Positions 1-48,703 of a stretch of 64,000 nucleotides of DNA are shown piece by piece. Origin of the DNA: Quercus robur (Eukaryota > Streptophyta > Magnoliopsida > Fagales > Fagaceae). Within the stretch, counting starts at the first letter, position 1. Every line of letters begins with the position of its first letter. Below the pieces are notes generated by a model. That model searched no databases, was not told the origin of the DNA, and saw only the letters and a program-made list of their open reading frames with translations. Both the position numbers and the translations under genes were made by a program. The stretch covers positions 14,689,830-14,753,829 of the forward strand of contig NC_065538.1 of assembly GCF_932294415.1 (NCBI RefSeq), in the 5' to 3' direction.

Positions 1-1218
1 CATTTAAAAATAAATATTGTTGTCAATTTTTCTAGTTTATTAATAATTATATATACTCTTGGATCTTTATCAAATATTCTAAATTTTTAGCATTGAAATT
101 TGCGGGGGGGGGAAAAAACCCTCCAAACCACTCATTAGTGCACCCATACCCACCAATATGCCAATATGAATCACAGAAAAATCAAAGCGGACATATACTA
201 AATTTGCAAGACAATGAAGTTTAAGATTCTAACTTAATGAGGAATTCAAATCCATGTGAGTTTTAATGCTTATTAAAAAAAATTGTTGCCCTCTTAATAA
301 ACTATATATATAGAGTAGAACATATAATCTTTTTAATCAAACATGAATCATTCAAGATATTCATTGTTAGGACTTAGGAATGATCAATTTAATTGATCTG
401 ATTCTATTGAAGATAACAGTGCTGTGGATTTCACATTAATTTTTTTTCCTGACCAATAAGCAAATCAAAGAAAAAAAAAAGATGAAGAGAAGGAGAAATA
501 CATAGTACATACCTTGCTTTGGGGATTAAGGGAGCACCAATATCAATGAGAAGTATTTTATATGTGTTGTAGGAAAGTGCCTCACAAAATACAAATAATT
601 GAGAAAACCTTGCCGCGATACACATATCTTATTTATACTGAAGTAAGTCAGGTGATCTTAGTTTTGTACGTAATCTGCTATGAATACTAGTCCGAAAGCA
701 ATTAGGAGATAATTTTGCACTTGAAATAGGAAACAGATTTCCAAGACTTGCACGCACACCAAAACAATATCATGGCTTAGGATAAGTTAAAGCCACCGAC
801 TTTCACAATATGAATTACTATTATACAAAATTGTTTCAAACACAGATTGCCTTTGTTACATGGTGTTTATCTAAAAACTTAACAATACAAGCTTTTAGAT
901 AAACACGGTTCAAAGGGCTTATCATTATCCATTGAATTGCAAGGCTTTATCATTATCTTGTATTTGTCCCATTCTGTTAAAGATTCCCAACCTCCATTAC
1001 AAGGTTCTCTTTAATGTGTCGCAAGGGAGTTAGAGAACTGAACACAGTGGAAACTAAGATTGAAAGGAGAAAATTCCAAGTAGGACTACGATTAATCAAA
1101 TGCATCAAGATCCTTTGTACAAATATTGATAGTGTTTCATTCAAGACAAGTTATTACTTCTAATTGGGTCTAGTCAGATTTCAAGTTCTACTCTGGGGTA
1201 CTACTCTTCAAATTTGCT
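1..1218. repeat. 3' flank of tandem-duplicated DUF629 unit, copy A
   Basis: This stretch is collinear with about 41928-43118 beyond copy D; base 1 matches base 41928, so the duplicated block extends past the left edge of the window. From about 970 onward the same sequence also flanks copy B (from about 28938). Differences are scattered substitutions and small indels. A short foldback at about 856-911 matches a cleaner palindrome at 42757-42800. No coding sequence is seen here. Confidence 0.85.
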
Positions 1219-1719
1219 TCATTTCTCATCCAATTTGACACCCTGAGCTTGATAAAAATACTTCCAGTTAAAGTCATCAAAGTTGATGCGTCTAAGGGAC
1301 ATTTTTTCCATATTTCTCGCACTGCTTCCAGCTTTATTTAGCTCAGCAAGGTGCTTTTGTTTGGCCTCGTTCTCAATCTGCCTCTGATACTCCAAATGCT
1401 CTTCAAGCATTCTTTGTTCTTTCTCCTCCTCAGGTGTAAGTTTCCGTTCCTCTTGCTCCAATTCATCAGTAGTTACAGGACCAACAATCTCAGGATTAGT
1501 AGGATCATTTCCATCATGCCAGCTGGAAAAGAACAGAGGCACAGCACATGTGAAAACACATTGAAATTTATTTAAGCCTAGGGGAGTGGGAGCACATATG
1601 GCCACAAATTTACATGTGTTTTAATCAATGCAAATGTTGAAGTATGAACCAAAAAAAAAAAAAAACAAAACTTACATTTGCTCCACATTTTCCTGTTGCT
1701 CCTCACTACCTCCAGTTGC
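1219..1719 (-). pseudogene. DUF627/DUF629 gene copy A, exons 4 and 5 only
   Basis: On the minus strand, 1676-1719 is a 44-bp exon with GT/AG borders, nearly identical to exon 4 of copies B, C and D. 1219-1522 is the terminal exon, encoding the Glu/Lys-rich tail with EEHLEYQRQIENEAKQK and ending VKLDEK-stop. The acceptor used in the other copies reads CTG instead of CAG here, and one base is missing just after it. A CCAG 11 bases downstream (exon end at 1522) would keep the frame after exon 4. Exons 2-3 are not found and exon 1 survives only as a scrap at 13929-14022. The gene is therefore a relic, separated from its 5' part by an LTR element in intron 3. Confidence 0.85.
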
Positions 1720-2380
1720 CTACAATTAGCGAATTGTATATTTTTAGGACATTAGTTTGCATAATCGATTCTCTTTGTTTTGCGGGAACTGAGAATTCTC
1801 TGCAGATCTTATATCTTTATTTCTTTCTTTCTATTTCAAAAAGGTTTGTGTTTTATCAACTTTAATTAAACTCAATCTTAGCTGCTTTCTTGTATTTGGA
1901 TGCTTAATGTATTAGTCATATCCAATTATTGCATTCCTTACTAAAAAAATATATATTAAATTTAGTTACATTGCTGTGCAAATGTGAACTTTATATCCAA
2001 TTAATAGCTGCTGGGTTAATCTATTTCATTTAGAGTGTGTGCTCAATGTGTGTTGTATGTCATATGTATTAGATTGCTCAATTTATTGTCATTCATAGTT
2101 CAGATCCGTATATACTTCTATTCTACTAAACTTGATCCATGTTTTCCTAACTTGGCTACCTTAGAAATACCCATTTCATTTACACTATCTTTTGGTTTTG
2201 TTTCACCTTTTAACTCTATCTCCTCCATATCCAAAGTCTGTTAGCATCCAATTCAAGTACATTTGTCCAATTTTTTCCATCTTATGTTAATATTTAACAT
2301 GTTTAGATGCTCTTTTTTTCCCACTTTTAGTTCCTGCCCCTTCTGCATTTTTTTTTTGGAGAATTTATACGTATAGCTTT
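1720..2380 (-). other. Intron 3 remnant of copy A
   Basis: This non-coding stretch aligns with 29703-30365 of copy B, the intron between exons 4 and 3. It stops at the LTR start at 2381. The matching position in copy B is about 30365 and in copy D about 44107, so both paralogs give an uninterrupted reference for the insertion point. Confidence 0.8.
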
Positions 2381-13928: not shown

Positions 13929-14022
13929 TTTCCTCAACGCAATAACTCTCTCTTCGTAGTTTCTTTCTGTGTAATTCAATTTGGGACTGTGTGAGCCAAC
14001 ATTCGGGGTTGTTGTCCTTGTA
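13929..14022 (-). pseudogene. Exon-1 relic of DUF627/DUF629 copy A
   Basis: Read on the minus strand, this 94-bp patch encodes YKDNNPECWLTQSQIELHR, almost the same as residues 147-165 of copy B. It then jumps to sequence matching copy B residues of about 201-209 after an internal deletion. Nucleotide similarity to 32480-32535 and 32343-32375 is obvious. It lies in the right order and orientation to be the lost 5' part of copy A, whose exons 4-5 are at 1219-1719. Confidence 0.82.
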
Positions 14023-19959: not shown

Positions 19960-19991
<32 letters not shown>

Positions 19992-23386: not shown

Positions 23387-23509
23387 AAGATTAACCTTTT
23401 CATTTATAACCAATAAAAATAAACATTACAACAATCCAACTTTAAAGAGAAAATCCCGTAGCCATTTGTGGCAGATGTGTTTAGAAAAAAAAAAAAAAAT
23501 TGAGCCTTT

Positions 23510-25980: not shown

Positions 25981-26002
25981 GGGGGTGGGGGTGGGGGTGG
26001 GG
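25981..26002 (+). repeat. G-quadruplex-type tract
   Basis: Three GGGGGT units followed by GGGG give four G runs with single-T loops, an ideal intramolecular G4 pattern. It lies between exon-like pieces of the GT14 fragment. Confidence 0.85.
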
Positions 26003-26539
26003 AGAAGAGGGATGAATAACATTCCATGCAATTTTCCTATGTCTTTATTGTCACAAGTGGTAAGAACTATGAACTATTTTTTTTTTGGATGGGAAGAACT
26101 ATAAACTAAATTGAAAGCAAAGATATAAATAACTAAATTTTAGGGGAAGATATAAAACCTGGGATCCTTTTTGCCATTTCTCCTCTGGTATTGCAGGTGA
26201 CATCTTTGGATCCTAGCGATCTTCATTGATGTTAATAAAGCTAACACAGTCACACAGAGTACATAAAACTCACTAACTCAGCTTAATTTTATTCTTTCTT
26301 CCATATTTGCAAAAGACATCAAAGTATTGGTTTACGAATTGATATAAGAAAGGCAACTATTTATTCTAGTTTTCATGGACCCAAAACTGCTCTTATGACT
26401 ACCTGTCCACAAAACTTTTTTGGAGAAGACATCACAGCGTTGTAGATGTAACTGAAGCCGTACAATGGTATACAATTGTAACACGAGATTAATAAAAATA
26501 AAAAATCACTAATGAAAAATGTCAATTAATTTTTGTTGT

Positions 26540-27345: not shown

Positions 27346-27870
27346 ATTGGATAGAAACTACATGAAGAGCATAGCACAAACAGAATCATTAGCAATGTAG
27401 CATCCAACACGCAGCAGTTCATAAAATTGGAATTAATCTATCAGAGAGAAGAATAAATCTCTGATTGGCTGGATCTTCAAGTGCTTTTTCAAGTAATAAC
27501 CACTCTGCCATTATCATACTTGATTCTCCTCGGACTACCTGCCATATCCATATCAATTAAAGTATGAGCATATTAATTTTGGAACCAAATCATTGCATGC
27601 AACTAATCTGTTTGGATGACAAGAAAATACAGGGGAAAAAAAGAAAGAATTTATGTTCAACTTAGGCTGATAAAGATAAAATTTTTCAAGTTAGAGTCAT
27701 AAGATTCAAACCTTGTTTTCTAAAATTTTCCATCATTTTCTTGGCAGACAAATTGAGGGTAAGCGAAAATCAAATATAAATATGAACTAGTTCTAGTCGT
27801 TTATCAAAGTAAATTAGCTAGAGGCATATATACCTGAATGCTATTGATTAACTGTCGGCATATATAGTCC

Positions 27871-28342
27871 TTTATATGGTACATGATAACGATTTGTATA
27901 AGGTTTAAATGGTTTAGGTTCACCCTGCAACAAAATCACCATTATTTCATAAACCAAATTATTACAACTCTTTGCAAAAGCATCTGTCACCACACTAAGG
28001 ATATTATAACCAAGTACTGTATGCTTTTGAACAAAAAAATTAGTTAGTTATATTAAAGAGAAATAGCAAGCACCAAGCTTTGCACACAAAATACAAGCAG
28101 TCAAGAATGATCAAACCAGAGATATACAAGTCTGTCAAGAAGAATCCAAAGCTGGCATAGATGCATACCAATTCAGGAACAAAATCGATCTCATGATTCC
28201 CCGCAGTCCATATCCAAGGTTGATAAGCAGCATCTCTCTCTATGAACCTTCCCCATGTATCCCACCTGTTGTTTTCATGTAATGGATAATCATCTGCATA
28301 AGAGAGGTCTCCAACAAACAATACTGTTTGCCCTTTTGTTGG
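27871..28342 (-). pseudogene. Purple acid phosphatase fragment (two exons)
   Basis: Minus-strand piece 28169-28342 encodes the metallophosphatase core: [15 protein letters not shown], then [20 protein letters not shown] and TAGNHEIDF. It keeps the metal-binding GDLSYAD and GNHE motifs and ends at a GTATGC donor. The next piece, 27871-27924, after a TTGCAG acceptor, encodes GEPKPFKPYTNRYHVPYK and is followed by a stop. The N-terminal fibronectin-like part and the later histidine motifs are absent, so it is not a working enzyme. Plant purple acid phosphatases are secreted or vacuolar phosphate-scavenging enzymes. It lies next to, and on the same strand as, an unrelated glycosyltransferase fragment, which suggests both were carried here. 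Confidence 0.82.
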
Positions 28343-28494
28343 GTTTAATTATTACAACATGATTATCATCGCATACATTTGGTGCAATGGTCACTCCACA
28401 AGTAAAGGTTGAAGTTCAAGTTTCCAAGGAGTTTTATACGCATATAAATAACTACTACTACCCACTGTTATCTAAACTCCCTTTAGCCACTATA

Positions 28495-28895
28495 AGAGCA
28501 TCTCTAGTAGATTAGACAAATTTTTGTACTGTTTGAAGAATGAACAGTGATTTTTACATTTTAGCTACCCACTTTTTCAAATACACTTTCCAACAAATTC
28601 TCTATCCCATTCTTTATCTTATTTAAATATTATTTCTTCATTCATTATTTATTCTTTTTTTAACAACTACATATCTTCCAACATTTTTTTCTTCAATACT
28701 TGATTATTATAATAGAAAAAAAAAAAAAAAAAAACATTTGAAGAATGAACAATAGCTGATCAGACTTGATGAGCTACTGTTCATGAGCCAAAAAAAATTT
28801 CCGGGTATAAAGAGTCCATTGGATACATATTTTGTGGATTTACTCTTTACTATAGAGAGGATTTTATGTTTAACTCTCCTATTGAAGATGCTCTA
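28495..28895. mobile_element. MITE with AGAGCATC termini
   Basis: The left AGAGCATCTCTAGTAGA and the right end, which reads AGAGCATCTTCAATAGGAGA on the other strand, make short terminal inverted repeats around about 400 bp of AT-rich DNA. The interior has a repeated TTGAAGAATGAACA phrase and no ORF. These are hAT-type MITE ends. The target duplication is unclear. Confidence 0.6.
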
Positions 28896-29192
28896 AAGCA
28901 TATGAAGTGCAAAAAAAAAAAAAAAAAAAAAAAACTTACAACCTATGAAAGATTTCCAACCTCCATTACTAGGTTCTTTTTAATGTCAGATGCCAGTCGC
29001 ATGGGAGTTAGAGAACCGAACACAGTGCAAACTAAGATTGAAAGGAGAAAATTCCAAGACTAAGATTAATCACATGCATCAAGATCCTTTGTACAAATAT
29101 TGATGGTGTTTCATTCAAGACAATTTATTACTTCTAATTGGGTCTAGTCAGATTTCAAGTTCTGCTCTGGGGTACTACTCTTCAAATTTCCT

Positions 29193-32100
29193 TCATTTCT
29201 CATCCAATTTGACACCCTGAGCTTGATAAAAATACTTCCATTTAAAGTCATCAAAGTTGATGCGTCTAAGGGACATTTTTTCCATATTTCCCGCACTGCT
29301 TCCAGCTTTATTTAGCTCAGCAAGGCGCTTTTGTTTGGCCTCATTCTCAATCTGCCTCTGATACTCCAAATGCTCTTCAAGCATTCTTTGCTCTTTCTCC
29401 TCCTCAGGTGTAAGTTTCCGTTCCTCTTGCTCCAATTCATCAGTGGTTACAGGACCAACAATCTCAGGATAAATAGGATCATTTCCATCATGCGCAGCTG
29501 GAGAAGAACTGAGGCACAGCACATGTGAAAACACATTGAAATTTATTTAAGCCTAAGGGAGTGGGAGCACATACGGCCACAAATTTACATGTGTTTTAAT
29601 CATGCAAAAGTTGAAGTATGAACCAAAAAAAAAAAAAAAAACAAAAACAAAAACTTACATTTGCTCCACATTTTCCTGTTGCTCCTCGCTACCTCCAGTT
29701 GCCTACAATAAGCGAATTGTATAGTTTTAGGACATTAGTTTGCATAATCGATTCTCTTTGTTTTGTGGGAACTGGCAACTCTCTGCAGATCTTATATTTT
29801 TATTTCTTTCTTTCTGTTTCAAAAAGGTTTGTGTTTTATCAATTTTAATTAAACTCGATCTTAGCTGCTTTCTTGTATTTGGATTCTTAATGTATTGGTC
29901 ATATCCAATTATTGCATTCCTTACTAAAAAAAATATGTATTAAATTTAGTTCCATTGCTGTGCAAATGTAAAGTTTATATCCAATTAATAGCTGCTGTGT
30001 TAATCTATTTCAGTATGAGAGTGTGCTCAATGTGCGCTGTATGTCATATGTATTAGATTGCTCAATTTATTGTCATTCATAGTTCAGATCCTTACATACT
30101 TCTGTTCTACTAAACTTGATCTACTTTTTCCTAACTTGGCTACCTCAGAAATACCCACTTCATTTACACTATCTTTTGGTTTTGTTTCACCTTTTAACTC
30201 TATCTCCTCCATATCCAAAGTCTGTTAGCATCCAATTCAACTACATTTGTCCAATTTTTTCCATCTTATTTTAATATTTAACATGTTTAGATGCTCTTAT
30301 TTTCCCACTTTTAGTTCCTGCCCCTTCTGCATTTTTTTCTGGAGAATTTATACATGTGTAGCTTTAGACAACTGAAACTACCATAAAAAAGAAACAAAAC
30401 AATAACCATCATACAAGACCTTTAATTCCTTGGGCCTTCTTTTATCCTTTTTCTTCTTTTTATCCTTTGATTTTCTCTGTCCTTGTCTTGCATTACCACC
30501 TCCTTTGTCAGTCTTTTTCTTGTCATCAAGTTCAAATTCTGATAAGAATGCTTCTTCAACAGCCTCATACTTCTTTTTTGCATCTTTGTTGGCCGGATCT
30601 TCCAGTCGTACCTACAAAAGGGGAATAGTACACCGAAAACATCAAATCATAGACGGGTAGGAAGGTAACTACATGAATACCTTCAACAAAACAGCACAGA
30701 GAATTCAACACAAACCCGCATGAATGACTTCAGCAGGGGCACCAAAATTGATCGGTAATCACAAGCAGTTACCGTATCAATTTTCTTAGCTGTCTGCTGC
30801 ATAGCAATAGTAGTTGTCCTGATTATAGCATCACATTTGCAAATCTGCAACAACAAACATACTGAGATTCAATCAACCTGTGGAATATAGCAGTTCATCA
30901 AGCAACATCTTTAATATTTCTCACCCCACTACACTGAGAGACATTCGATTTCACATCAAACAATTTGAAAATTTGACATGTTTATAAATTTGGCTATACC
31001 ATACCTTTGCTGCCGTCTCACCAATCAGCCTTTTAATCTCCAATTTTATTTCATTGTCCACATGATGTCCTACCAAAATTTTCCATATGATGTCTGACTC
31101 AAAATTCTCATCATTTGTGTTCTTAATCTGTCTCTCCCGCTTTGACAAGAGAGGCTCATAACTCAATGGTTCATTCCCAAACTCTTCCCTTCTCTTATCT
31201 TCTTCAGCACATATACTATCCAAATTCTGACATTCCTTAAAGTCTCTAAAGCACTCTATTTTTTTCTCACAAATATTCTGCATCTGGTGAAATTCAGCCT
31301 CGTAGATCTTGAAAAACTCTTTCCCTTGACTTCTACAAGTTTCTATCAAATTTTTCCACTGCTTCAATTGCTCCCCAATATTAGTACCTCCCTTCAATAA
31401 CCAATCCACAATAGCATCTTTATGTTCATCATCATTTAGTTCGATTTCATCAACAGCACTAGAAGTAACAGCAGCTCCATCATTTGGCACAACAAGCTGT
31501 CCACTCAACATTCTCTTGTCAAATTCAACAAAAGAGAAGTCCTCATTAAAAACAAGCTTCTCACATGGCTCACCTCTAACCTCATCATTCACAAGACTCT
31601 TGCAGAGCCCGTGTAACCCACAAATATTGCCAAGATTATCCAAGAACTCAAACACACGATTAAGCTCTGAGATGTCAAGAAAGCACGCCGAGAGCAGAGT
31701 GCGGTTCATACAATGTTCCTTAAGCAACTGTTCTGGGATTCGCTTCTTCAGCATATCCATTATCACGAACATTAACCCTTGAAGATGGCTCCGAACGAAA
31801 CATCTAATGCTCAAGAACTGGTCTAATAGTGCTCGGATTTTATTAATGATCGCTTCACGTTCTATATCGATGCAATAAGGCCATTTTTGTTTCAAGAAAA
31901 CTTCATCTCCACCCTCTTTTCTTGACAAATCTTCCATCATTTTCACAGCGGCGACCACATCCACGGGTCTCCATTTTATTGATTTAACGGAGTCATGGAT
32001 TGAATCAGATACAATTTTCGGCTCTACAGACCGTAACTCATCAGATAAAGTCCCTAAATGCACACTCTTCAGATGCTCTGCATTCAATTTTACGTCAAAA

Positions 32101-32969
32101 AACCTCTCGCCACAACAACAACACGTCCAAAACTTCCAATTCTTCGCCGCCTTCACGTGCTCCACCGCCTGCATCACCACCGCCACAGCCTGCGGTGATT
32201 TTTTCTTATCAAAATGCAGTTTAAGGCTTTTGATTCGAATCCTCAACAAATCCTTCTTTAGCTCCATACTCATCGTGTCATTCCAGTAATCCTTGACACG
32301 GGTCACCACAGTTTCATCGTTCAACACTTTCTTGAGGTTCTTCCTCAACGCAATAGCTTTCTCTTCGATCTCTTCCTTTCTTCCTTGTAGTTCTTGAATC
32401 TCATTCTTTATGATTTCCAAAAATTTAGTGTCAATGAAATACTTGCTTTTCAATCTGAGGAGCCTGAGTTTCATTCTGTGTAATTCACTTTGGGACTGTG
32501 TGAGCCAACTTTCGGGGTTGTTGTCCTTGTATTGGATGGCTAAACCGGTATCAGATGCTTCAATCACGGCTTCTAAGCCGGCATTGGCGTCGTTTCTGGC
32601 TAATGCCATTAGTGCGGAAGCGTGGAAGAACCAGAAAGAGAGGGAGTCTTGACATAACTGCACCGCTCGCTTAGATGAGTTGACGGATCTCTTGATATGT
32701 TCGAGCATCTCGGGGCGGTAATTGTCGATGATGGTGGCTAAATGCGAGATTTTTAAGTGGATGAAGCTGAGGGTGCCGTGTGCAAGAGCGGAGTTTGGGT
32801 GGCGGGATAGGGTGGACTTGACAAGTTTGAGGGCTTCGGTTGGGTGCCCATTGTAAAGTTCATCAATGGCGCCATTGACTTCTTTGGTGATGGTGAGTGA
32901 TCGATCATCAACATCAGACGGTGGAGGGTGAGAAGGAGAGGCAGTTGCATTGCGTTTCTTGCTTCTCAT
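29193..32969 (-). CDS. DUF627/DUF629 protein, copy B (ubiquitin-hydrolase-related, no peptidase domain)
   Basis: Five exons on the minus strand: 31005-32969, 30716-30844, 30420-30611, 29659-29702 and 29193-29508, all with GT-AG introns and a continuous frame of 881 residues. Residues of about 30-140 are the TPR-like DUF627 region, with NGHPTEALKLVKSTLSRHPN. DUF629 follows and includes a C2H2-like finger (Cys283, Cys286, His299, His304). The end is Lys-rich (exon 3) and Glu-rich coiled-coil (exon 5, EEHLEYQRQIENEAKQK), stopping at VKLDEK. Full-length plant relatives continue into a ubiquitin C-terminal hydrolase domain of about 1600 residues in total; this gene ends before it. It may act as a binding or regulatory form, but its role is unknown. 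Copies A, C and D are neighbours in tandem. Confidence 0.88.
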
Positions 32970-33469
32970 TTTGGAGGGAAAAAGAGAATAGTGAGAATGG
33001 TTTGAATGTAAATGGAAAATAAGGAATTAATAACTAATAAGCAATCACAAAATGGGCCTCATGCACTCACATTTGTTTCCACAATGTCAAGGAAAATAGG
33101 TGCCCGTTGGTTACATGTGTTTAAACATTTGTTTTTAGTTTTTAAATAACATTACACATATTTTCATATATTTTTTCACTCACACATACTTTCATAAAAT
33201 ATAAACAACGTTATTAGAACAATGTTATTGAACGGTTAGTAGATGTCTTTAGCCATTAAGGAATATTAATCGTCATTGATTCAATAGATTTATAACATTT
33301 TTTTTTTCAAACATTTTAATGTTCTAATTGGATTGAGTTCTTATCGATCATTTGATTGAATATCTTGGAAGGCTTTTTAAAATTGATAAAAATAATACAT
33401 AGTTTTTTCTATTTTTAAACATTAATTATTATAAAATTTTGGGTTATTATTATTATTATTATTTTTATA
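32970..33469. promoter_or_regulatory. Upstream region of copy B
   Basis: This is the 5' flank of copy B, starting with a purine-rich leader (TTTGGAGGGAAAAAGAG on the plus strand) shared with copy D. It becomes AT-rich beyond about 33100, with an (ATT)n run near 33443-33465. No core promoter element can be placed with confidence. Unlike the copy A unit, there is no UGT gene or relic here. Confidence 0.4.
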
Positions 33470-33520
33470 ATAGGGATGGAGTCTTTTTATAAATGTGGTA
33501 GGACCATTTTGTAATGAGTT

Positions 33521-35497
33521 CTAAGAGAATTAGTACCTGACATGCTATATGCCATATGTTGCCTTATTTTAGCATCCAAGCACAAAAAATGTCATTACCC
33601 AGTCTTCTACTCCTAAAATAATTTGCAATTATGCTATAGTACCATTGTAAATTTACAATGGTACTGTAGCAATGTTCTAAAACCGAATAATATTTTTTTA
33701 TTCTCACCTACAAATATCTGCCTCTTTCTTTCTCTTTATTGTCTCATCTTCTCTTTCTCTTGACAAAACATAGCTTCTTGGTCTCACATCTCTCTTACGG
33801 TGGTTCATTATTTTCTGGTGTGGTCGTGGGTCCAGTGTTATCTGGTGGTTTGGCGGCATGGTCTTGGTGGTGTGGGTTGCTTTTTGATTTGCTTTTAGTG
33901 GGTTTTTGTTTTGGATTATTCTGGTTTGTTGATGGGTTGATAGGTGGTTGATTGGGTGGGTAGAGATCGGCGTGGTCGAGATTGGCGTGGGTTTTGATCG
34001 AGTGGTTCGTGCAACGGTGGAGATCGGCGTGGGTCATGGCGAGGTTGTGCACAAGGTTGTCAGACCCAAACCAGACCGGGTGGTCCGACTGGTTAACTAA
34101 AAATTGGACTGAAATCTAGCTTTTTAAACATAGAGAACCGTATTTTTTTAAAAATTCTATGAACCCTTTAACACCGCAGTGCACCGGTTCTGCATGAACT
34201 GGGTGGTCCAACTGCGATTCAAGCATGTTTGTTAATTAAGAAAAATCAGAGAAGTGTGCTTACCATGTTTAGAACCTAGGCATGGTTAGAGTTGGAGCTA
34301 GAGTCTAACCACTCAGCTAAGCTTGCAAGTTGATGCTCAACAATTTTATTGTTTTTTAAAAAAAATACTTGAAATAAACTTAACACAATTTTTTTTTTTT
34401 TTTTTAAATAAAGACAACTTAACACAATTCTATTCTATTCAATTAAATTATCCATCTCTTAAAAGGAATATAAAAAAAAAATTATAATTAAAATCCTTCA
34501 AAGATATTCAACTTTGCTTTAAAAATTAATCATAAATTTTAATGTTTTCATGGTTATTATTTTATTTTATTAACTTTCTTATTTAATTTGTGAATATATG
34601 CTTGAAAATCATTAAATTTCCCTCACATATATAGATATATTAGTCAATTTTGCTAGTTTTATAAATTTAATATCTATATTTGGGTTTTAATTAATTATTA
34701 AAGTAATTATGACGTCATCGCGGTTCAACCTTAGTCAAACCTTGGTCCGACCTTGAAAACCTTGAACTTCTCCTTCTACCAGTTCTTTGAACGGTCCAGG
34801 TCTAAAAATTATGGTCGTGCGTGGTTGAGATGAGCATGGTCACGGCGTGGCGAGATCGGGTGGGTCATGGCAAAGGTGAATGGGTTTTGATTGTGCATGG
34901 GTTCCAATGGGGGTTTGAGGTGGATTCTGATTCTAATGGGGTTTTGATTTTAATTTTTTGCTATAAATTTTGGGTGGGTTTTGATTTTTTGCTATGGATT
35001 TCTGATGTATTGGATTCCAATTTTGGATTCCGCTTTGTTGGACTTTGGTTAGATTTTGGACTCCGCTTGGTTAGACTTTGGATTTTGGATTCACATTTGT
35101 TGGTTTGGGTTGGTGTGGTGGTGATTGTGGTGGATGGTGTTTGGTCACTATGGGTTTGTTATTGTTATGTTCATCTTTGCTTACTGTGTTGGTTTGATTT
35201 GAAATGATTCTTGGTAGTGGGTGGTGTGACTATGTTGCTTAACAAAGTTGGGTGGTGTGACTGGGAAGCTGAACGGTAGTGGTGGTGGTGGGTGGTTGAG
35301 AGAGAGAGAGAGAGAAACAGAGATTAGAGAGAGAAGTGAGAATATTTGTTATATTATTTTACATTATTTTAATGTGTAGTATGCTAAAATAAAAGTTAGG
35401 ATGTTAAATGTGTTGGAAAAGGGTATGGTATATATGATAAAGTAGCTTTTGAGATGGTAAAATGGATTTTTTTGTAGAAATCAGATGTGAATGCTCT
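33521..35497. mobile_element. 2-kb insertion in spacer 2 with nested TIR element
   Basis: Spacer copy 1 runs directly from GAGTCCTAAG into GCCTAGTTCTTTAGCC; spacer copy 2 has about 1.98 kb between the same words, flanked by TCTAAG and TCTAAAG. GT-rich text such as GATCGGCGTGGGTCATGGCG recurs on both sides of an inner block (about 34060-34806). The inner block starts TCAGACCCAAACCAGACC and ends GAACGGTCCAGGTCTAA, imperfect inverted ends of a smaller transposon. No gene is seen. The superfamily is undetermined. Confidence 0.55.
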
Positions 35498-37231
35498 AAA
35501 GCCTAGTTCTTTAGCCAGCCTATGTGTCTATCAAAATAATAAGAAGCAATGTATTATTAGGATTTAATAGGACACTTGAAAAGGATATGAGCACTACATA
35601 ATTAGCCCAAAAAACAAAATCCATCAAATAGAAAGAGAGATTCTTTCTTTTTATGGGAAGAACCATCTTTTCGTTAATAGCCAATAAAAAACAATACAAC
35701 ACCAGAAATTTAAAGAGAAAAACTTGTGGCTATTAAGTAGTGATCTGTGGCAGTTTTTTTAAATTTTTATTTTTTATAAGTAATTTTGGTCCATTTTGGT
35801 TTACATTGATCAATTTTGGTCAAGTTCGGGCTATATCTGGTCTTGGGTAATGTTTTAGAATTCCTAAGAATGTTTAAAGACTCCATAAGAATCTCATGTA
35901 TGATTGCAAATTGCATAAAGGAATATGATGCTTGAGGGTATCTAGATTCATATTCAACCTCAATTTTGTAGTAACATGAATTACTTTCGAAACAGGTGGG
36001 TATTTATATTTCTATGCTCAGAAAAAGTTGCATTTTATTTTTAAACCATTTACAAAGTCGAAATAAATAATTAAAAAAAAAATTTGTCCTTATCTCTTTT
36101 TAGCAATATGATTAAGAAATAGTTTATATGTGTGTGTGTATGTAGTGTTTCTCTTTTTTAGAATCTCCTATTTGGTATTAAGTTAGATGCTAAAAGAAAA
36201 GAAATTATTTTTATTAACAAAGATGATGTTGTGCTTGCCATGAAGAGCAAGAATTTTAAAAAATTATTTATGTATTATACATGTCATTAAAGAATGTTAG
36301 AATTTAATTTTAGTGAATTTTCCATGATTTATAGTTATATATATATATTATTTATGAGAAGATTGAAAAAAAGACTAGATATTGTGTTTACAAATCTAAT
36401 TTGATATTGTGTTTATAAGAATGTCATATTTTTTAGATTCTTAGTAGATTCCGAACTAACCCAAACTTTGGAATGTTTATATTCTCAAGCATCTAGATTA
36501 CTAGGCATCATATTTTGAGGAATTTGGATGCAAATTTATGTAGATTCCGCCAAACCAAAAGTCCCTTTGATTTTTTCCTCTTTTTATTACTCTCATTTAC
36601 TCTCTTTCATGTTAATGAGAGTTTATATTTGTAGGTTAAAAATAAGAGAAAGTCTAAAAACACAATAAGCCTTGTCTTGTGTAGTTAACGTGTGTACAAC
36701 ATTGGACGCGTATTTCTTGAACTTTCTTTTATCATCTCTTCTGCTCATTTTTGGAGGGAAATTGAGAGAATAGAGGGAAAAAAATGTTTTGAATTGAATA
36801 ATATTATGGAGTAGTGAAAACATCTACTTATAAGTTTGCCTCAAAAAAAAAAAAAGGTGAATAAATGAAAATGGAAATGAAGAGATCCTAACTACTTACG
36901 AGTTATGAGTTTGCCTCTAGACAAAAAATAAAATTAAAAATTAAAAATTAAACTGTAAAAAAAAGAATTAATCCAGATTCTTATGTGAGGGAGCTAATTG
37001 ACCCAAATTCACAATGTTGGAGAGCGGATTTAATTGATCAAATTTTCATTCCTTTGAAGCTAGTCAGATTAAAAGCATCCCTTTGAGTTCAAATTGAAGG
37101 AAACATAGCCTTTTATGAGAAGATCAACCTTCTCATTTATAACCAATTAAAAAAAAAACATTACTACAACCCAACTTTAAAGAGAAAACCCCGTAGCCAT
37201 TTGTGGCAGATTTGTTTCTAAAAAAAAAAAA

Positions 37232-37445
37232 GGCGAAACTACATTATTGGTCCCTGAAGTTTACCCTGTGTACGCAATTGGTCCCTCAAGTTTGAAGCGA
37301 GCACAATTAGTCCCTTAAGTTTTAAAACTGAGTTGTATTGGTTCTTTTACTAACTGCTGCTAATGGTGTTACTTACGTGGCTAATGAAACAATAACTTGA
37401 CTTTTTTTTAATGACATAGCATGTTTTTAATTAAAAATTAAAAAA
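37232..37445 (+). repeat. Left TIR of Pack-MULE
   Basis: It starts GGCGAAACTACATTATTGG and includes TTAGTCCCTTAAGTTTTAAA and GTGTTACTTACGTGGCTAA, all mirrored in the right TIR. Confidence 0.85.
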
Positions 37446-37771
37446 AAAAAAGTTTCCACGTTAGATGAAATTTAAAATCATATTAACTGGCTCACATTTC
37501 TCATAAATTAATTAAATTTTTAAAATTACACTTTAATATTTAGGTAACACTAGTTTACACTAAGCCATTACCATTCCATCACTCTTTCTCACTCTCTCAT
37601 TCAATTCTGGCTCACATTTCTGAAGAACAATATAGTGCGCATTATGCACCCCCCCTCCCTTTTCTCTTGTCTTCATTCCAATTCTCTCTAGCTATTTCCT
37701 CAGAGAATCCCAAACCTTAGATCTCAACCTCAACCTCAAAACCTTCTTTATTTCTGTGAGCTCGAGTGGTT

Positions 37772-38008
37772 ATGGCAGCTCAGTTGGCTCGGCTTCTGGT
37801 TTATTTCTTGATCGCGACGTGGCTTGCAGTCGAGAACGAGTATATTGCTTTGGCTTTGACGATGCTGTTGTTGAGGCTAATTCACCGCTTCTCAGACGAA
37901 GCAGCGAAGGCGCTCAAGTTTTTGCCGTCGGAGACAAACGACAGTGCCGGAGTGTCACCACTTCTCCTTTCTCTCTCGTTGTGGGTTTTTACAATAGGTA
38001 GAAAATAA
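37772..38008 (+). CDS. Captured exon-like ORF in Pack-MULE, membrane-type, unknown family
   Basis: The ATG at 37772 opens 78 codons: MAAQLARLLVYFLIATWLAV, then a second hydrophobic stretch YIALALTMLLLRLI and a third near the end (LLLSLSLWVFTIG). The region is GC-richer than its surroundings and is preceded by a CT-rich leader, as in a captured first exon with its 5' UTR. A donor-like ATAG/GTAGAA lies near 37997. No family is recognised. Whether it is expressed is unknown. Confidence 0.45.
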   Translation: MAAQLARLLVYFLIATWLAVENEYIALALTMLLLRLIHRFSDEAAKALKFLPSETNDSAGVSPLLLSLSLWVFTIGRK

Positions 38009-38053
38009 AATTTTTAATTCAGTACTGGTGAATATTTTTTCTCTAAATTTAGT

Positions 38054-38267
38054 TTCTAATTTTTTAATTAAAAACATTCCACATCATTAAAAAAAATGTC
38101 AAGTCATTGTTCCGTTAGCCACGTAAGTAACACCTTTAACAATAGTTAGTAAAAGGACTAATACAACTCAGTTTTAAAACTTAAGGGACTAATTGTACTC
38201 GCTTCAAACTTGAGAGATCAATTATGCACACAAGGTAAATTTCAAGGATCAATAGTGTAGTTTCGCC
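38054..38267 (-). repeat. Right TIR of Pack-MULE
   Basis: Its reverse complement matches 37232-37445 with scattered substitutions. The terminal AGTTTCGCC is exact. Confidence 0.85.
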
Positions 38268-38785
38268 AAAAAAAAAACCCTTTTAGGTCCATTTCGGTCT
38301 ACAATGGTCCATTTGGTCCATTTTAGTCAATTCAGTTCACTTTAGTCTATTTTGATTCCATTTGGTCCATTCAGTCTATTCCAGCCCATGCCAGTTCAGT
38401 CGACCTCGGTTTATTTGGTCTATTTAGTTCACTTCGGTCCACTTTAGTCCATTTTGATCTATTGCAGTCCATTCAGTCCACTTTAGTACATTTAAAAAAA
38501 TAGTAGGAACTAATTGTCATACAAAAATTTGCAGATGACCAAACATAGTTGTCAAAAAATTATTTAAATTTAAAACTAACCTTGTTACATTGGAAAATTA
38601 TAACTAGACTATGATTTTCTAAAGATTTTTTTTAAAAAATATATTTTTCTACAACATTATTGATTAATCAATTATCATATGACATATCAATCAGTATTTG
38701 GTTTAGTTCGGTCACTTGTTTTGGCTATTAGGAAATAAAATTTAGTTGTTTCCATCGTTTGAGAAGGCTATTTATTGCAAGAATG

Positions 38786-39027
38786 TAAGCCTGAGGATTT
38801 TTCATGCCAAGATTACTATGATATGTTTTATAGCACACAAGCTGGTAGATTAAGGTGTACCAGTAGTAATACCAAGTCATTCATTGATTGAGCTAGGATA
38901 AACTGTGTTCTTAATTTTGGGATGGCTATTGGTAGAGTGGCAGATGAAGTAGGGATATTGAAGGGGTTGTGTACGTGGTGGCAGCTACGAACTCATTGTT
39001 TGGAAAGTCTATTTTTTCATTTCCAGC
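38786..39027. other. Spacer between duplicated blocks
   Basis: This short unique stretch lies between spacer copy 2 and copy C. One 60-codon frame has no family signal. It corresponds in position to the CACTA and captured-gene region (24034-28342) that sits between spacer copy 1 and copy B. Confidence 0.4.
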
Positions 39028-39155
39028 TAAGATTAATCACATGCATTAAAATCCTTTCTACAAACATTGATGGTGTTTCATTCAAGACAATTTATTACTT
39101 CTAATTGGGTCTAGTCAGATTCAAGTTCTCTGGGGTGCTACTCTTCAAATTTGCT

Positions 39156-39642
39156 TCATTTCTCTTCCGATTTGGCACCCTGAGCTTGATGAAAATATTT
39201 CCAGTTAAAGTTATTAAAGCTGATGTGACGAAGGGACGTTTGTTCCATATTTCCTTCACTGCTTCCAGCTTTATTTAGCTCAGCAAGGCGCTTTTGTTCG
39301 GCCTTATTTTCAATCTGCCTCTGATACTCCAAAGGCTCTTTCTCCTCCTCAGGCCTAAGTTTCTGTTTTTCTTGTCCCAGTTCATCAGTGATTACAGGGC
39401 CAACAATCTCTGGATTAGGAGGATTATCTCCGCCATGTTCAGCTGGAAGGGAACTGAAGCACAAAACAGGTGAAAAATCATTGTAGCTTTATTTAAGTCT
39501 AGGTATTGGGGGCACATATGGCCAAAAAATTGACAGATTTTCGCATATTTTAGTCAATGGAAATGTTTAAGTAGGAACAAAAACAATTAATGACTTACAT
39601 TTGCTCCGCATTTTCCTGTCGCTCTTTGCTACTTCCGGTTGC
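39156..39642 (-). pseudogene. DUF627/DUF629 gene copy C, exons 4 and 5 only
   Basis: Exon 4 (39599-39642, 44 bp) and exon 5 (39156-39453) keep splice signals and an open frame to the same stop as copies A, B and D (QAQG then K-EEK-stop). Exon 5 is 298 bp, 18 bp shorter than in B and D: six residues of the EQRMLEEH stretch are missing in frame. Similarity to the array begins near 39028 and ends shortly upstream of exon 4. Exons 1-3 are absent, so this is a 3' scrap of a fourth copy. Confidence 0.85.
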
Positions 39643-41927
39643 CTACAATAAGCAATAATTGAAATACCTTAATAGAAAAATAGAATGTAATTAAAAAAAA
39701 AAAAAGAAAAAAAAAAAGATAGTTCTTCTCACATAAATCTCTTAATTTAATTAATGGTAATTGAATTTCTTGTATATAAAACCAAAAAAAAAAAAAAAAA
39801 TCCATAAATTAAAAGTATATAGACCTGCTAGGCTACCACAATCAAGGTAATATAAAAAATAATTAAATAAATGTACATCAAGATAAAGAGGAAGCGAAAA
39901 TTATATTGCAATGTAAATGTAAAAATTTACATATTAATTACCTGATGTACGCATTTTAATGTTGCCATAAATGAGAAAATAATCTGCACAATCAATTAAG
40001 AACACTTCAATAAATTATATAAAAAATTAAGATGAATTGAATTATCTAAAAAAAATTAAAAACCATAGAATTCAGGTAATAATTCAACTACATTAATAGT
40101 AAAATGGAAACACAATAAAATAAAATAAAAACCTACTTCTTCTCACCGAAAAGCTGAAATTTTCCTTATGTAGTACTTCACCTAATTTTAGTATTTTTAT
40201 TGATTGAAATAGAGTTGTAGTTGAGTTTTATTTCAACTCAATTTCTATTAGATTCAAACTTAGATGCTTATTTAATTCTAATCTATGTTTTCTTATGTGG
40301 ATTATCATAACAAAAAGGTTGTTTTTGTTTGTGATACAAAGATGTTTAAAAAAACTTCAATCTTATTTTATTTGCACTCCTAAAAAGTTGTTAAGGATAA
40401 AAAGAGTGATGGTATCAAAAAATTATTTATAAAATGAATAGATGAAGAATTTGAATTGCAATCAAATTAATATTTTTATTTCCTTAAAAATAATAAGAGA
40501 AGAAGATAAGAACAAAAATAATATTTATTTATTTAAAATCTGTCTCTATATAGATAGAGAGAGGGATGTATATATATATATATATATATATAGCCTTTGA
40601 ATGACTATTAAATTATCGTTAAAGATGTCCTTCTTATGCTCAAGTTTAAAGTAATTGATGTCAGATCTACGCATATTGTACATAGTTTATTCACAGACCA
40701 GTAAGGCAATAACATATTATATATAGCAAGCTCATTGTACCTCTCTTGATGAAAAATAAAAAGTTAAATGAAATAAAAGAAAGAAGAAGAAGAACTTCAA
40801 TGCCTAGGAGTAGAGCCAGAAATTTTTGTTTGGAAGGTCAAGTTGTGATACTAATATATTTATCAAGACAACTTCACACACGTATGTACACACATTTTTG
40901 TTTTGTTTTGTTGTTTTTTATTATATACACACATATACATACTTTTTTTTTTCCGATAATTTATATATATGCACACTCCAAAAAAAAAAAAAGCTTAGTA
41001 TTTTCTTTGAAAATTATGTTTGATGGTGATCTTTCATAAAATAAAATTTATTTTTACCTTTTTTTATAGTGAAATTATTAAAAAGTTTCATTTTCAATAC
41101 AAGTTATCAAATTTTACACTAAAGTAAGAAAAAAAATTATAATTGAACTAATGAAATTTCTAAAAACATGAATGATTCAAAATTGGAGAAATAAGTTATG
41201 CTCCAAACATATTTGAATTTTGCTCTAACCTATTATGTGGCATTTAAAGAGACATTTTATGTGTAGTTTTGACAAGATTTTTTTTATGAGTTAATGACTT
41301 GACACCGCAACATAACAAGTTAAAAAAGATATATCCAAATATGTTTGGTACCAAACTAGTAGGAGTCTCGTGCTTGCACGGTTTTGGTCATAAATTTTTC
41401 TATATAGTAATTTTTTGAGAAACAATAACTAAATGAATCATTATTCCTTAATTTTAGTATTCTCATATATATACACACACATATAACCAAATGAATGATT
41501 ATTGTTATAATAACTTGTAATGAACTGCTTCTAAAATGCTTAATTCTATATATTATTCATTTTATTTTATATCTCTAATTAAAATGATTAGTAAAAGGTT
41601 CCTATTTTTATATATATTTATAATACCATATAATTACAATTGAAAACAGTAAGCAAAGAGAGACTCACATTAAAATCGAACAGGAATTGAAAATAAAGCT
41701 AATAGTAAAATCCAAAAGTTAAAAATAATATTATTATAAAAAAAAGTACATGTGTTATATAAACAAACCAAAACATCAAAATAATATTAACATATAACAA
41801 AAGAAGAGATCAAAAGTAGATTAATATCTAAGCAGTAAATTAGTATCAACATAAAATTACCAAAGCAATCACCATAGCATATAAAGAGCACCAAATTTAC
41901 AAATTATAAGCTATCCAAATTTCTAAG
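39643..41927. other. AT-rich spacer, no gene seen
   Basis: A-rich runs, a (TA)n array (about 40568-40592) and short repeats only. No exon-like sequence or TE terminus could be supported. Confidence 0.6.
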
Positions 41928-43118
41928 CATTTAAAAATAAATATTGTTGTCAATTTTTCTTGTTTATTAATAATTATATATACTTTTGGATCTTTATCAA
42001 ATATTCTAAATTTTTAGCATTGAAATTTGCGGGGAAAAAAAACCCTCCAAACCACTCATTGGTGCACCCGTACCCACCAATATGCCAATATGAATCAACA
42101 GAAAAATCAAAGCTGACACATTCTAAATTTGCAAGACATTGAAGTTTAAGATTCTAACTTAATGAGGAATTCAAATCCATGTGAGTTTGAATGCTTATTA
42201 AAAAAAATTGGTGCACTCTTAATAAACTATATATATAGTAGAACATATAATTTTTTTAATCAAACGTGAATCATTCAGGATATTCATTGTTAGGAATGCT
42301 CAATTAAATTGATCAGATTCCATTGAAGATAACAGTACTGTGAATTTGACATACATTAAATTTCTTTTCTGACCAATAAGCAAATCAAAGAAAAAAAAAA
42401 AATGAAGGGAAGGAGAAATATATACCTTACTTTGGGGATTAAGGGAGCAACAATATCAATGAGAAGTATTTTTAGTGCCTAACCGAAAGTCTATAATTCA
42501 ATTTTATAAATGTTAGAGGAAAGCGCCTCACAAATAAAAAAAATTTAGAGAAAACCTTTATATAACCTGCTATGAATACTAGTCCGAAAGCAATTAGGAG
42601 ATAGTGTTGCAATTGAAATAGGAAATAGATTTCCAGGACTTGCACGCCACACCAAAACAAAATCATGGCTTAGGATAAGTTAAAGCCACGACTTTCACAA
42701 TATAAATTACTATTAAATAAAATTGTTTCAAACACAGATTGCTTTTGTTACACGGTGTTTATCTAAAAACTTATATTGATAAGTTTTTAGATAAACACGG
42801 TTCAAAGGACTTATCATTATCCATTGAATTGCAAGAGTTTATCATTATCTTGTATCTGTCCCATTCTGTCAAAGATTCCCAACCTCCATTACAAGGTTCT
42901 CTTTAATGTCAGATGCCAGTCGCATGGGTGTTAGAAAACCGAACACAGTGCAAACTGAGATTGAAAGGAGAAAATTCCAACTAAGACTAAGATTAATCAC
43001 ATGCATCAAGATCTTTTGTACAAATATTGATGGTGTTTCATTCAAGACAATTTATTACTTCTAATTGGGTCTAGTCAGATTCAAGTTCTACTCTGGGGTA
43101 CTACTCTTCAAATTTGCT
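41928..43118. repeat. 3' flank of copy D, duplicated at 1-1218
   Basis: Collinear with 1-1218 with small indels. It contains a near-perfect palindrome at 42757-42800 (GTGTTTATCTAAAAACTTA and its inverse), degraded in copy A. Confidence 0.85.
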
Positions 43119-46100
43119 TCATTTCTCATCCAATTTGACACCCTGAGCTTGATAAAAATACTTCCAGTTAAAGTCATCAAAGTTAATGCGCCTAAGGCAC
43201 TTTTTTTCCATATTTCCTGCACTGCTTCCAGCTTTATTTAGCTCCGCAAGGCGCTTTTGTTTGGCCTCATTCTCAACGTGCCTCTGGTCCTCCAAATGCT
43301 CTTCAAGCATTCTTTGCTCTTTCTCCTCCTCAGGCATAAGTTTCGGTTTGTCTTGCCCCAGTTCATCAATGATTACAGGACCAAAAATCTCTGGATTAGG
43401 AGGGTTATCTCCGCCATGCTCAGCAGGAAAGGATCTGAAGCACAAAACAGGTGAAAAATCATTGTAGCTTTATTTAAGTCTAGGTAATGGGAGCACATAT
43501 GGCAAAAAAATTTACAGATTTTCACATATTTAGTCAATGGAAATGTTAAAGGAGTAACAAAAACAAAGACTTACATTTGCTCCACATTTTCCTGATGCTC
43601 TTTGCTACCTCCAGTTGCCTAAAATAAACAAATTGTATATTTTTGGGACATTAGATTGCATAATAGATTCTCCAAATTTTTTGTGAACTAGGATCTCTAT
43701 GCAGACTTTATATCTTTCTTTCTTTCTGAGAAATTGCAAAGTTTATATCCAATTAGCTAGCTTCTGTGATAATCTGTTTCAGTAAGTGCGAGTGTTTAAT
43801 ATCTTTTATATGTCATATGTATTAGATTGCTCATATATTTTTTGTTTCTTTCAGAGTTCAGATCCTTAAATACTACTATTCTAGTAAACTTGAGCCACAT
43901 TTTCCTAAATTGGATACCTCTGAAATACCTCATTTACACTAACTTGGCACCTCTATATCTTAAGCCTTTGGCATCCAATTCAAGTATATTTGTCCAAAAT
44001 TCGGCTATCTTATGTTAATATTTAACTTGTTAGATGCTCTTATTGTCACACATTTAGTTCCTCCCCCTTCTCCATTTTTTCTGGTGAATTTATACATGTG
44101 TAGCTTTAGACAACTGTAACAACCATACAAAATAAACAAAACAATAACTAGTATACAAGACCTGTAATTCCTTTGGCTTTCTTTTATTCTTTTTCTTCAT
44201 TTTTTCCTTTGATTTTCCCTTCCCTTGTCTTGCATCACCACATCCTTTGTCAGTGGTGATCTTCTTGTCATCAAGATCAGGTTCTGATAACAATGCTTTT
44301 GCTGCAGCCTTAGACTTCTCTTCCGCATCTTTTTTAGCCAGTTCATCCAGGCGTTCCTATAAAAGGGGAATAGTTTACCATAAACATCAGATCATAGACG
44401 GGCAAGATAACTATATGAGAACCTTCAATAAAACAGCACGGAGAATCCAACACAAACCAGAATGAATGACTTCAGCAGGGGCACCATAATTGATCGGTAG
44501 TCATAAGCAGTTACCGCTTCAATTTTCTTTCCCGTCTGCTGCATAGCAATAGTAGTTGTCCTGATTATACCATCAAATTTGTAAAGCTGCAACAATAAAC
44601 ATACTGAAATTCAATCATCCTATGGAACGAAACAGTTCATCAAGCAACATATCTAATATCAAACACAACACTACACCTATGGACATTGGATTTCACTTCA
44701 AGCATGAAATTTATCATGTTCATAAATTTGACTATATCATACCTTTTCATTTATCTCACTAATATGCTTCTTGATCTCTAATTTTATTTCATTGTCCTCG
44801 TGATTTTCTTCCAAAATATACCATATGATATCCGACTCAAAATTCTCATCGTTTGTGTTCTTAGTCTGCCTCTCCCGTTCTGACAAGAGAGACTCGCAAC
44901 TCAATGGTTTGTGCCTAAACTCTTCCCTTCTTTTATCTTCTTCAACGCATATACTATCCAAATTCTGAAATACCTTAATGTATCTCAAATACAGTATTTT
45001 TTTCTCAAGAATGTTCTGCATCCGGTGAAATTCAGCCTCATAGATCTTGAAAAAATCTTTCCCTTGACTTCTACTTGTTTCTCTCAAATTTGCCCACTGC
45101 TTCAATTGCTCCCCAATATTAATATTAGTACTTCCCTTCAATAACCAATCCACAATAGCATCTTTACACTCATCATCATTTAATACGATTTCAGCATTAG
45201 CACTAGAAGTAACAGCGGCTCCATCATTCGGCACAAGAAGCTCTCCATGCAACATTCTCTTGTCAAAAACTACACAAGAGAAGTCCTCATTGAATACAAT
45301 CTTCTCATGACAAGCAACACAAGACTCACCTCTAATCTTATCCTTTGCAAGACTCGAGCAGAGCCCGTATAACCCACAAATATGAGCGAGATCATCCAAG
45401 AACTTGAACACACGATTAAGCTCTGAGATGTCAAGAAAGCATGCTGAGAGCAGAGTGCGGTTCATCCAATGTTCCTTAAGCAGCTTTTCCGGGATTCGCT
45501 TCTTAAGCATTTCCATTATCAAGTCCATGAACACTAAAAGATGACTTGAAACAAAAAATCTAACCCTCAAGAACAGGCGTAACCTTGCTCGAATTTCATT
45601 AATGACCTTGTCACGCCTGCTATCTTTGCAATAAGGCCATTCTTTCTGGTTCATGAAAACTGTAGACTCATTTAGGCCTTCATCTCCACGCCTGTTTCTT
45701 GACAAATCTTCCATCATTTTCTTAGCGGCGATCACGTCCACAGGTCCCCACTTTCTTGATTCAACGGTGTCATGGACTGAATCAAATTCAATTTCCGGCA
45801 TGAATGATTGTGATTCATCGGAGAAAGTCCCTAAATGCACACTCTTGATATGCTCCCTATTCAATTCGACGTCAAAAGACCTCTCATTGCAACAACAACA
45901 CTTCCAAAACTTCCAATTCTTCACCACCTTCACATACTCCACTGCCTGCATCAACACTGCCATTGCCGCCGGTGAGTTATTCTTAGCAAAATGCAGTTTA
46001 AGGTCTTCGATTCGAATCCTCAACAAATCCTTCTTTTGCTCCATACTCATCCCGTGGTTCCAATAGTCCTTGACTCGTGTCGCCACCACCGTGTCAACAT

Positions 46101-46779
46101 CAGCCGCAACTTTCTTTACGTTCTTGAGCTTTCTTTTGTTATCTGACGAGGCCAATTCTTGCGTTTTGAAGTTCTTCCTCGCCGAAACAGCTCTCAGTTC
46201 GATCTCTTCCTTTCTGTCTTGTAGTTCTTGAATCTCATTCGTTATGCTTCCCAAATATTTAGTGTCTATGAGATACACGCTTCTCAATTTGAAGAGTCTG
46301 AGGTTCTTTCTGATTAAATCAATTTCGTCCTCCCCGTGAACAGTGGGGTTTTCGATGGATAAACTGGTATCACACGCTTGGATCACAGCTTCGAAGCCAG
46401 CATTGGCGTCGTTGTAGGCTAATTTGACGAGTGCAATGACGTATGAGTACCAGAAGGAGAGAGAGATGGGGCATAACTCGACTGCTCGCTTGGAAGAGTT
46501 GACGGAACTCTTGGCAATTTTGAGCTTTTTGTGGTCGGGAGTGGCAGTAGAGTTGAGGCTTTTGTCGAGAAGGTAGCTGAGTGTGTTATGAGCAAGCGCA
46601 GAGTTTGGGTGGCGAGATAGGATGTCCTTGACAAGACTCAAGGCTTCGGTGGGGTTCCCATTGTAGAATTCGTTCATGGCGTGATCAACTTCTTCGGTGA
46701 TGTTGGGTGATTGATCATCAACATCGGACGGTGGAGGTTGAGAGGGAGATGGGGTTGCGTTGCGTTTCATGCTGCTCAT
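43119..46779 (-). CDS. DUF627/DUF629 protein, copy D (ubiquitin-hydrolase-related, no peptidase domain)
   Basis: Five exons on the minus strand: 44743-46779, 44458-44586, 44162-44356, 43575-43618 and 43119-43434, with GT-AG introns and an open frame of 906 residues. Exons 2, 4 and 5 have exactly the same lengths as in copy B (129, 44, 316 bp). The DUF627 TPR-like part is near residues 30-140. The C2H2-like finger is Cys294, Cys297, His310, His315. A Lys-rich segment precedes the Glu-rich coiled coil and the VKLDEK end. Compared with copy B it has an insertion rich in Lys and Ala near residues 205-228 and several small indels, so the two have diverged clearly. The ubiquitin hydrolase domain of full-length relatives is absent, as in B. 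Confidence 0.88.
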
Positions 46780-48703
46780 TTTGGAGGGAAATGGAGAACA
46801 GAGAAAAGGGTGGCTTGAATTTAATTGCTTTTATGAAGAAAACTTGAAATGGGTGAGAAACCAAAAAAGGGAAAAAGGGAGTTAAGCAAATACAGAAATA
46901 TTATTAGCCAATATTTATGCCTGCCTCAATTTAAGCGTGTTGTATAACTAAGCATTTTTTTTTTTTGAGAATCTATAACTAAGCATTTTGTTCGATTAAG
47001 CATACGGAATTATTGAGTAATACCTCAATAAGATAATGGTTCTTGTACTAATATAAAGTATAAACTCTAAATTTTGGACAATGGATAACCTCTTACTTCA
47101 ACTATTGGTTTTTTATCTACAACAATCAAGTTTTAGTCCCAAATTTTTGAAGTTAACTATGGGTCCCCAACAAACTAATCAAGGTCAATCACGTGTATGT
47201 ATTCATTTCCATTTTAGTCTATTTGGAGTCATATTCTCCGTTATTTTCTTAATTGACCCATTCAGTTTTACTACTACTACGAACAAAACTATCTTGTCCT
47301 TCATTCTTGTAGAGCATTTCAAGATCTTGTTTCATAATGAACATAGGTTCTGTGGTGCCCAAACCCAGTGGTGTTTCTTTCAAGGACGAAGAATTTGAGC
47401 TCCTAATTTATTTGTTGGTGGGTTTCCTTGTGTTCCTACTGGTTATTGCCTCAAACGTTGCCTTGACAGCATAAACCCCTCGCCTTTGTGGTCATTAGCC
47501 CAATTCTCACCTACCCTCTCATTTTCCCTCTACTCCAAGTATTGCAATCTCTTTCAACTCTCTCCCTTTCTATGTGTTTGCCAACCCCCTCTCCATTCGT
47601 CCCATCTTCTCTCCCTTAGTGGGGATCCAAATTATTACTTTTGCACCAGTTCCCACGTAATTCCATTTCTGCCTAAAATCCCAAGAAAAATTATTTATTC
47701 TAAGGATTCTCTTGAAATTTATTCCTGATGCCAAATAGCATTCTGTAGTGAACTTCCCAAAAGCACTAATTGTGCTTGAGGAACTGACCTTAATTTGACC
47801 ATCCCCTCATCGGCCTCCCCTGTAGGTGTGCTAGTTGAAATTGGACCTACCCGACCTAGATATAGTAAGTTTCACCCGAGCACCAACCTTGCACTCTTGC
47901 ACTTATGTCATTGGGCTTGGCCTATCCCTATAGTGTTGGGCTAGTTTCAATTTCCTGGGACAACCTTGGGCTTTGGTTACCTAGGCCAATCTTGGTTATT
48001 TGGGCCCAAGTCCCTACAGGTTCTATGCTTGTTTTATCCAAAATCGGCAAATATTTGGGCGTCCTATTGTTAAGATGGTATGGGTTCTGGAGTTAATTAG
48101 CTCTAGACTAAATAGCACTTTCTTCTCTTACAAGAGCATGGTGAGTTCATGGGTTTCTATTCATAAATAAAGTAAGTAAAAAATATGCCACCATAGCCAG
48201 ATTTGTCTTGTTTTATGAACAAAAGGGAGCTAAAGGACTTTGGGAGGCTTTGAACACTGTGGTGGTGGTCAGTTTTAACAAGAAGATGTAAAAATGTCTT
48301 GTGCTTAAGCTAAATTAAAATTTAAAAAAAAAAAATATATATATATATATATATATGTTATGCTGAAAATGGGCTATAGGATTCTGAAGGCTACATTCCG
48401 ATTTTCTTTATAGAATGGAAGAATTGCATGGTTATTGTTCTCTAGATTAACTTATGGGGCTCTATTGTGGTTTTCTTTTTAAATTTTTACTAACATAGCT
48501 AATTTATTTTTTATTTTTAACTGGTTGTATCAACTGTTAGTTGAATTATTTGTCAACGAGATGTATAGGGCTATGGAATTATGTAACATTGTAAACATTG
48601 ATGAATAAAAGAGAGGGTTTATGAGCCCTAACCCTGTAAGTCCACACGTGTAGAGTAAATTGTTTAACACTTATAGCACAAACCCATTTTTGACATATTG
48701 GTC
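46780..48703. other. Upstream of copy D and spacer, no gene seen
   Basis: The first 20-30 bases match the purine-rich leader of copy B. Beyond that, several short open frames (such as 47081-47398) show no family signal. An (AT)n run lies at about 48331-48356. Confidence 0.55.

Follow-up and report, generated by a model that had tools for sequence, protein, structure and literature searches.

Two DUF629 genes of Quercus robur that end ahead of the ubiquitin-hydrolase domain, a likely truncated branch of a known plant family

The closest described relatives are plant ubiquitin-specific proteases (UBPs) that combine a TPR-like region, DUF629 and a peptidase C19 domain, as set out in the available passages on rice group G14 (Os09g37580, Os03g06950, and Os11g34690; PMC6249995) and poplar group G16 (PtrUBP30-32; PMC8281628). 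The present analysis concerns two genes, B and D, in a 64,000 nucleotide stretch of the Quercus robur genome (contig NC_065538.1, positions 14,689,830 to 14,753,829 of the forward strand), referred to as the window and numbered from its first base. Both encode DUF629 proteins that end before such a peptidase, and two further copies, A and C, are present as fragments. A C2H2-like finger is a defining feature of the DUF627-DUF629-peptidase C19 family, and this finger and a Lys/Glu-rich linker also occur in the full-length members, as a general likeness rather than an aligned one. Multi-domain genes of plants often have partial copies, and proteins with only DUF627 and DUF629 are annotated in other plant species. 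AT1G65110 and AT3G47890 are presumably members of the DUF629 family, and AT5G61940 and AT1G52430 are taken here to belong to the same family as B and D. In the parts of the surveys drawn on, the first pair (PMC3485569) and the second (PMC9146226) are counted as C2H2 zinc-finger genes. Two other reports, as far as their available portions go, have no bearing on B and D; one describes RNA chimeras at AT3G47890 (PMC6545605) and the other human USP53/USP54, with plants unmentioned (PMC12037411). A literature search, conducted mostly without full texts, returned no study of protease-less DUF629 proteins. Of 14 papers naming DUF629 or DUF627, two deal with families of plant deubiquitinases and one is an association study in maize.

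Domain content and absence of the peptidase

The two intact proteins of 881 aa (B) and 906 aa (D) in the preliminary description are reproduced at exactly these lengths by five-exon models. The exon borders were set by hand at GT/AG sites and the GT-AG ends of all 8 introns are therefore so by construction; the models are credible because equal, frame-keeping borders occur in both genes. In the spliced proteins, Pfam matches DUF629 in B with an E value of 2.9e-64 (217.9 bits) and in D with 6.4e-66 (223.3 bits), against a cut-off of 23.1 bits. The N-terminal DUF627 or TPR-like region of D scores 30.4 bits, above the cut-off of 27.6. The four residues of the C2H2-like finger in B (C283, C286, H299, and H304), identified from sequence only, are all invariant in D, and a Lys/Glu-rich linker followed by a tail is found in both proteins. 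Neither DUF629 nor DUF627 has a function assigned in Pfam. A structure model of B exon 1, built on an alignment of 2 sequences, had a mean predicted local distance difference test score (pLDDT) of 35.4 and values below 50 for residues 138-655, therefore DUF629 receives no fold assignment from it. A PDB sequence search with the same exon returned 3 rows, the best at E 1.1, none of them meaningful.

No C19 or UCH peptidase family was matched by Pfam up to an E value of 0.1 in the spliced B and D proteins, nor, with E values up to 1 or 0.1, in the minus-strand frames of 1-1230, 16001-29200, and 33101-43100. The last two of these are the 13.2 kb downstream of B and the 10 kb downstream of D. The plus-strand frame scan covered 24001-29193, these all being parts of the window. 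The same downstream scan did detect a metallophosphoesterase piece (E 1e-5) and core-2/I-branching enzyme pieces (E 1.1e-5, and 0.0022 below the cut-off), which shows that exon-sized pieces are detectable in such frames. No Cys box was found in the six frames of the window by a motif scan that had no positive control. The sole output of the peptidase motif scan was one His-box-like string at 13341-13376. A hidden downstream peptidase was rejected on the negative results of Pfam, with the proteins and with the scanned frames, and of the motif scan. B and D do therefore end ahead of the ubiquitin-hydrolase domain, as had been proposed. They are better not classed as deubiquitinases, since the peptidase is missing from both, and without a catalytic domain they would not be expected to have deubiquitinating activity.

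The shared ending and the recombinant 3' end of D

The tail is present in 4 out of 4 copies with the stop at the same place in all, and an AATAAA follows 60-64 nt past the stop in three of these (B, C, and D). The ending is thus common to the four copies, as first noted. Independent truncation of B and D was rejected in favour of an ending common to both, and the close match between their tails is itself attributed to recombination. Near B coordinate 29409 the sequence of D switches, resembling C upstream and A and B downstream. Of 76 informative sites, 54 precede the switch and 22 follow it; D agrees with A/B at 11 of the former and at 21 of the latter. This count, read from the string of sites, omits alignment columns in which one or more copies have a gap, along with sites that differ between A and B. 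The maximum chi-square for the switch is 36.2, a value reached by none of 10000 permutations. B and D diverge by 0.24-0.29 in the surroundings of intron 4 but by 0.02-0.07 at the end of exon 5 and in the near 3' flank. For A and D, the 100-nt bins between A 1399 and the edge of the window show a divergence of 2-12%, with the exception of 30-34% at A 500-699.

The B and D tails are nearly identical because the 3' end of D is of the A/B type, through recombination or gene conversion. From these comparisons, exchange explains this near-identity better than constraint on the tail. The ending appears older than the exchange because copy C is D-like upstream yet has its own diverged tail, and copy C is therefore the more independent witness for an old ending. 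The earlier proposal that truncation preceded the array stands in part; it has the support of copy C, but the ends of B and D are not independent of each other.

Constraint on the two frames and rival explanations

The reading preferred here, with a probability of roughly 0.55, takes B and D as intact paralogs of plant TPR-DUF629-peptidase C19 proteins, truncated at the 3' end, that were locally duplicated and work by binding. They likely belong to a known plant family, as a branch that is truncated and was duplicated locally. What the sequence itself shows is the gene structure, the missing peptidase in the stretches tested, the shared ending, the open frames and the recombinant 3' end of D. 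The protease part would already have been missing in the ancestor of this small cluster; local duplication would have followed, copies A and C would have decayed to fragments, and 3' ends of D and of A/B type would have been exchanged. We infer that the B and D proteins are made and function without catalysis, using their TPR-like helices and zinc finger to bind a partner or substrate, which a full-length deubiquitinase may bind as well. The B and D proteins might thereby act as competitors or adaptors. A more specific proposal is unlikely, namely that the genes are a lineage-specific, locally duplicating set for protease-less DUF627/DUF629 proteins, which regulate a full-length plant deubiquitinase through competition over substrates or partners, while gene conversion keeps the ending uniform. 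If selection maintains these genes despite the missing protease, the front half of a deubiquitinase would have a role of its own, and B and D would be a tool for finding what DUF627 and DUF629 bind. If they are relics, they represent ordinary partial gene duplication.

Between B and D, nonsynonymous divergence (dN) is 0.173 and synonymous divergence (dS) 0.326, a ratio of 0.53 (bootstrap 0.43-0.66, with 0 of 2000 replicates at 1 or above). The comparison of dN/dS suggested in the preliminary description thus gives a pairwise value below 1, although as a single ratio for both genes that is not divisible between them. The ratio is 0.51 in exon 1 alone, where 0 of 2000 bootstraps reach 1, and 0.62 in exons 2-5, where the bootstrap range extends to 1.04 and 66 of 2000 are at 1 or above. 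Indels between the genes are in multiples of three in 9 out of 9 cases in exons and in 1 out of 12 in introns. In a neutral simulation without gene conversion, the mean number of stops per copy was 8-13, and in none of the four settings did any of 500 copies keep an open frame. Both frames are read, from these sequence comparisons, as kept by weak, relaxed constraint. This constraint appears weak because dN/dS is 0.93 for residues 149-224, 1.15 for exon 2, and 0.83 for exon 3, and because introns 1-3 have diverged to a degree (0.15-0.22) similar to dN; intron 4 is higher at 0.39.

These high regional ratios and the intron-like dN weigh against the preferred reading, as do several other observations. 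Third positions account for 180 of the 462 differences, or slightly more than one in three. The frames would also be open after a recent loss of constraint, which is compatible with the simulation. DUF627 in B scores 22.5 bits, a borderline value under the Pfam cut-off. Homology between B and D ends 45-48 nt upstream of the ATG (32969-33014 and 46779-46827) and their upstream sequences have no recognisable relationship; at least one of the genes may therefore be without the ancestral promoter. The binding function itself is only inferred.

Several of these points fit the explanation that B and D are recent relics. On this view the 5' part of a deubiquitinase gene was duplicated, the copies kept open frames while constraint was weak, and they now drift without present function, like A and C but later. 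Two of the four copies are already fragments, with a splice acceptor lost in A, introns 1-3 have a divergence near dN, some bootstraps for exons 2-5 reach or pass 1, and the upstream sequences differ. On the other hand, neither frame of 880-900 codons is interrupted, against a neutral expectation of 8-13 stops on average, the exon indels are all frame-keeping, and exon 1 has no bootstrap at or above 1; the relic explanation is on balance doubtful. It is considerably less probable that B and D function outside ubiquitin biology, with the TPR and zinc-finger part serving another scaffold role. The invariance of the finger residues between B and D and the placing of family members among C2H2 zinc-finger genes would agree with such a role, but the available survey passages (PMC9146226 and PMC3485569) offer class membership and expression values and no molecular function. 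Least probable, and very much so, is that the genes were misread; transcripts would then be spliced beyond exon 5 to a peptidase exon far away, and the last part of the tail would be read-through into an intron. A CAG|GT within the coding sequence, close to where the tail finishes, is possibly a weak donor. Against this are the scanned stretches downstream of B and D without a peptidase match, the lack of a Cys box by motif in the window, and the position of the AATAAA shortly after the stop in three of the copies.

Features of the locus and comparison with known families

Table 1. Coordinates of the B and D genes, the fragmentary copies and neighbouring features in the window
Feature	Position	Strand	Remarks
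B gene	29193-32969	minus	five exons, 881 aa; spliced model, no internal stop
B exon 1	31005..32969	minus	655 aa; TPR-like DUF627 region, C2H2-like finger, most of DUF629
B exon 2	30716..30844	minus	
B exon 3	30420..30611	minus	Lys/Glu-rich linker
B exon 4	29659..29702	minus	
B exon 5	29193..29508	minus	linker, shared tail, stop; AATAAA 64 nt past stop
D gene	43119-46779	minus	five exons, 906 aa; spliced model, no internal stop
D exon 1	44743..46779	minus	679 aa
D exon 2	44458..44586	minus	
D exon 3	44162..44356	minus	
D exon 4	43575..43618	minus	
D exon 5	43119..43434	minus	linker, shared tail, stop; 3' part A/B-like; AATAAA 63 nt past stop
Copy A	979..2380	minus	fragment by homology to B; exons 4-5, part of intron 3, 3' flank
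Exon 1 scrap	13954..14022	minus	23 aa, matches B residues 147-169
Copy C	39027..39655	minus	fragment limited to exons 4-5 and the tail; stop codon at 39156; AATAAA 60 nt past stop
Calcineurin-like phosphoesterase piece	28082-28351	minus	exon-sized; coordinates worked out from residue numbers
Core-2/I-branching enzyme pieces	27425-27541; 25423-25515 (below cut-off)	minus	exon-sized; coordinates from residue numbers
UDP-glycosyltransferase frame	14609-16024	plus	open, single-exon; Pfam UDPGT, E 8.7e-14

Copy A, which lies outside the interval 29193-46779 of the preliminary description, has lost the acceptor AG of exon 5 and one base relative to B, C, and D, and its AATAAA is altered. Its homology to B stops at 2380, where a repeat (2379-4022) starts. 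The exon 1 scrap is perhaps the remainder of this copy. A direct repeat pair at 2468-2777 and 12376-12686, with 90% identity over 311 nt, may be the termini of an element that broke up copy A. Other direct repeats, at 19146-20758 and 35558-37124 (87% identity) and at 23515-24033 and 38279-38776 (78%), are found between and beside the DUF629 copies, which suggests that larger segments were duplicated.

The phosphoesterase and core-2/I-branching pieces are 0.8-3.8 kb downstream of B and in the same orientation. Related regions of about 4 kb at 4074-8080 and 53758-57681, 75% identical, look like retroelements. Transposon capture of B was rejected; terminal inverted repeats around the gene amounted to 14 short pairs (20-33 nt, with 70-95% complementarity), none of them convincing. 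Single-protein queries, suited to close relatives only, gave 28 pattern matches but 0 confirmed relatives of D exon 1 in prokaryotic contigs, and 1 unconfirmed pattern match for D exon 5 in viral contigs.

The genes of the C2H2 survey (PMC9146226) have the C2H2-like finger in common with B and D, a comparison made by class listing in the available part of that source. Unlike the rice G14 and poplar G16 UBPs, as these are described in the passages drawn on, B and D are without peptidase C19 and end in a short shared tail. Like them, they have DUF629 and, with B borderline, a DUF627 or TPR-like N-terminal region.
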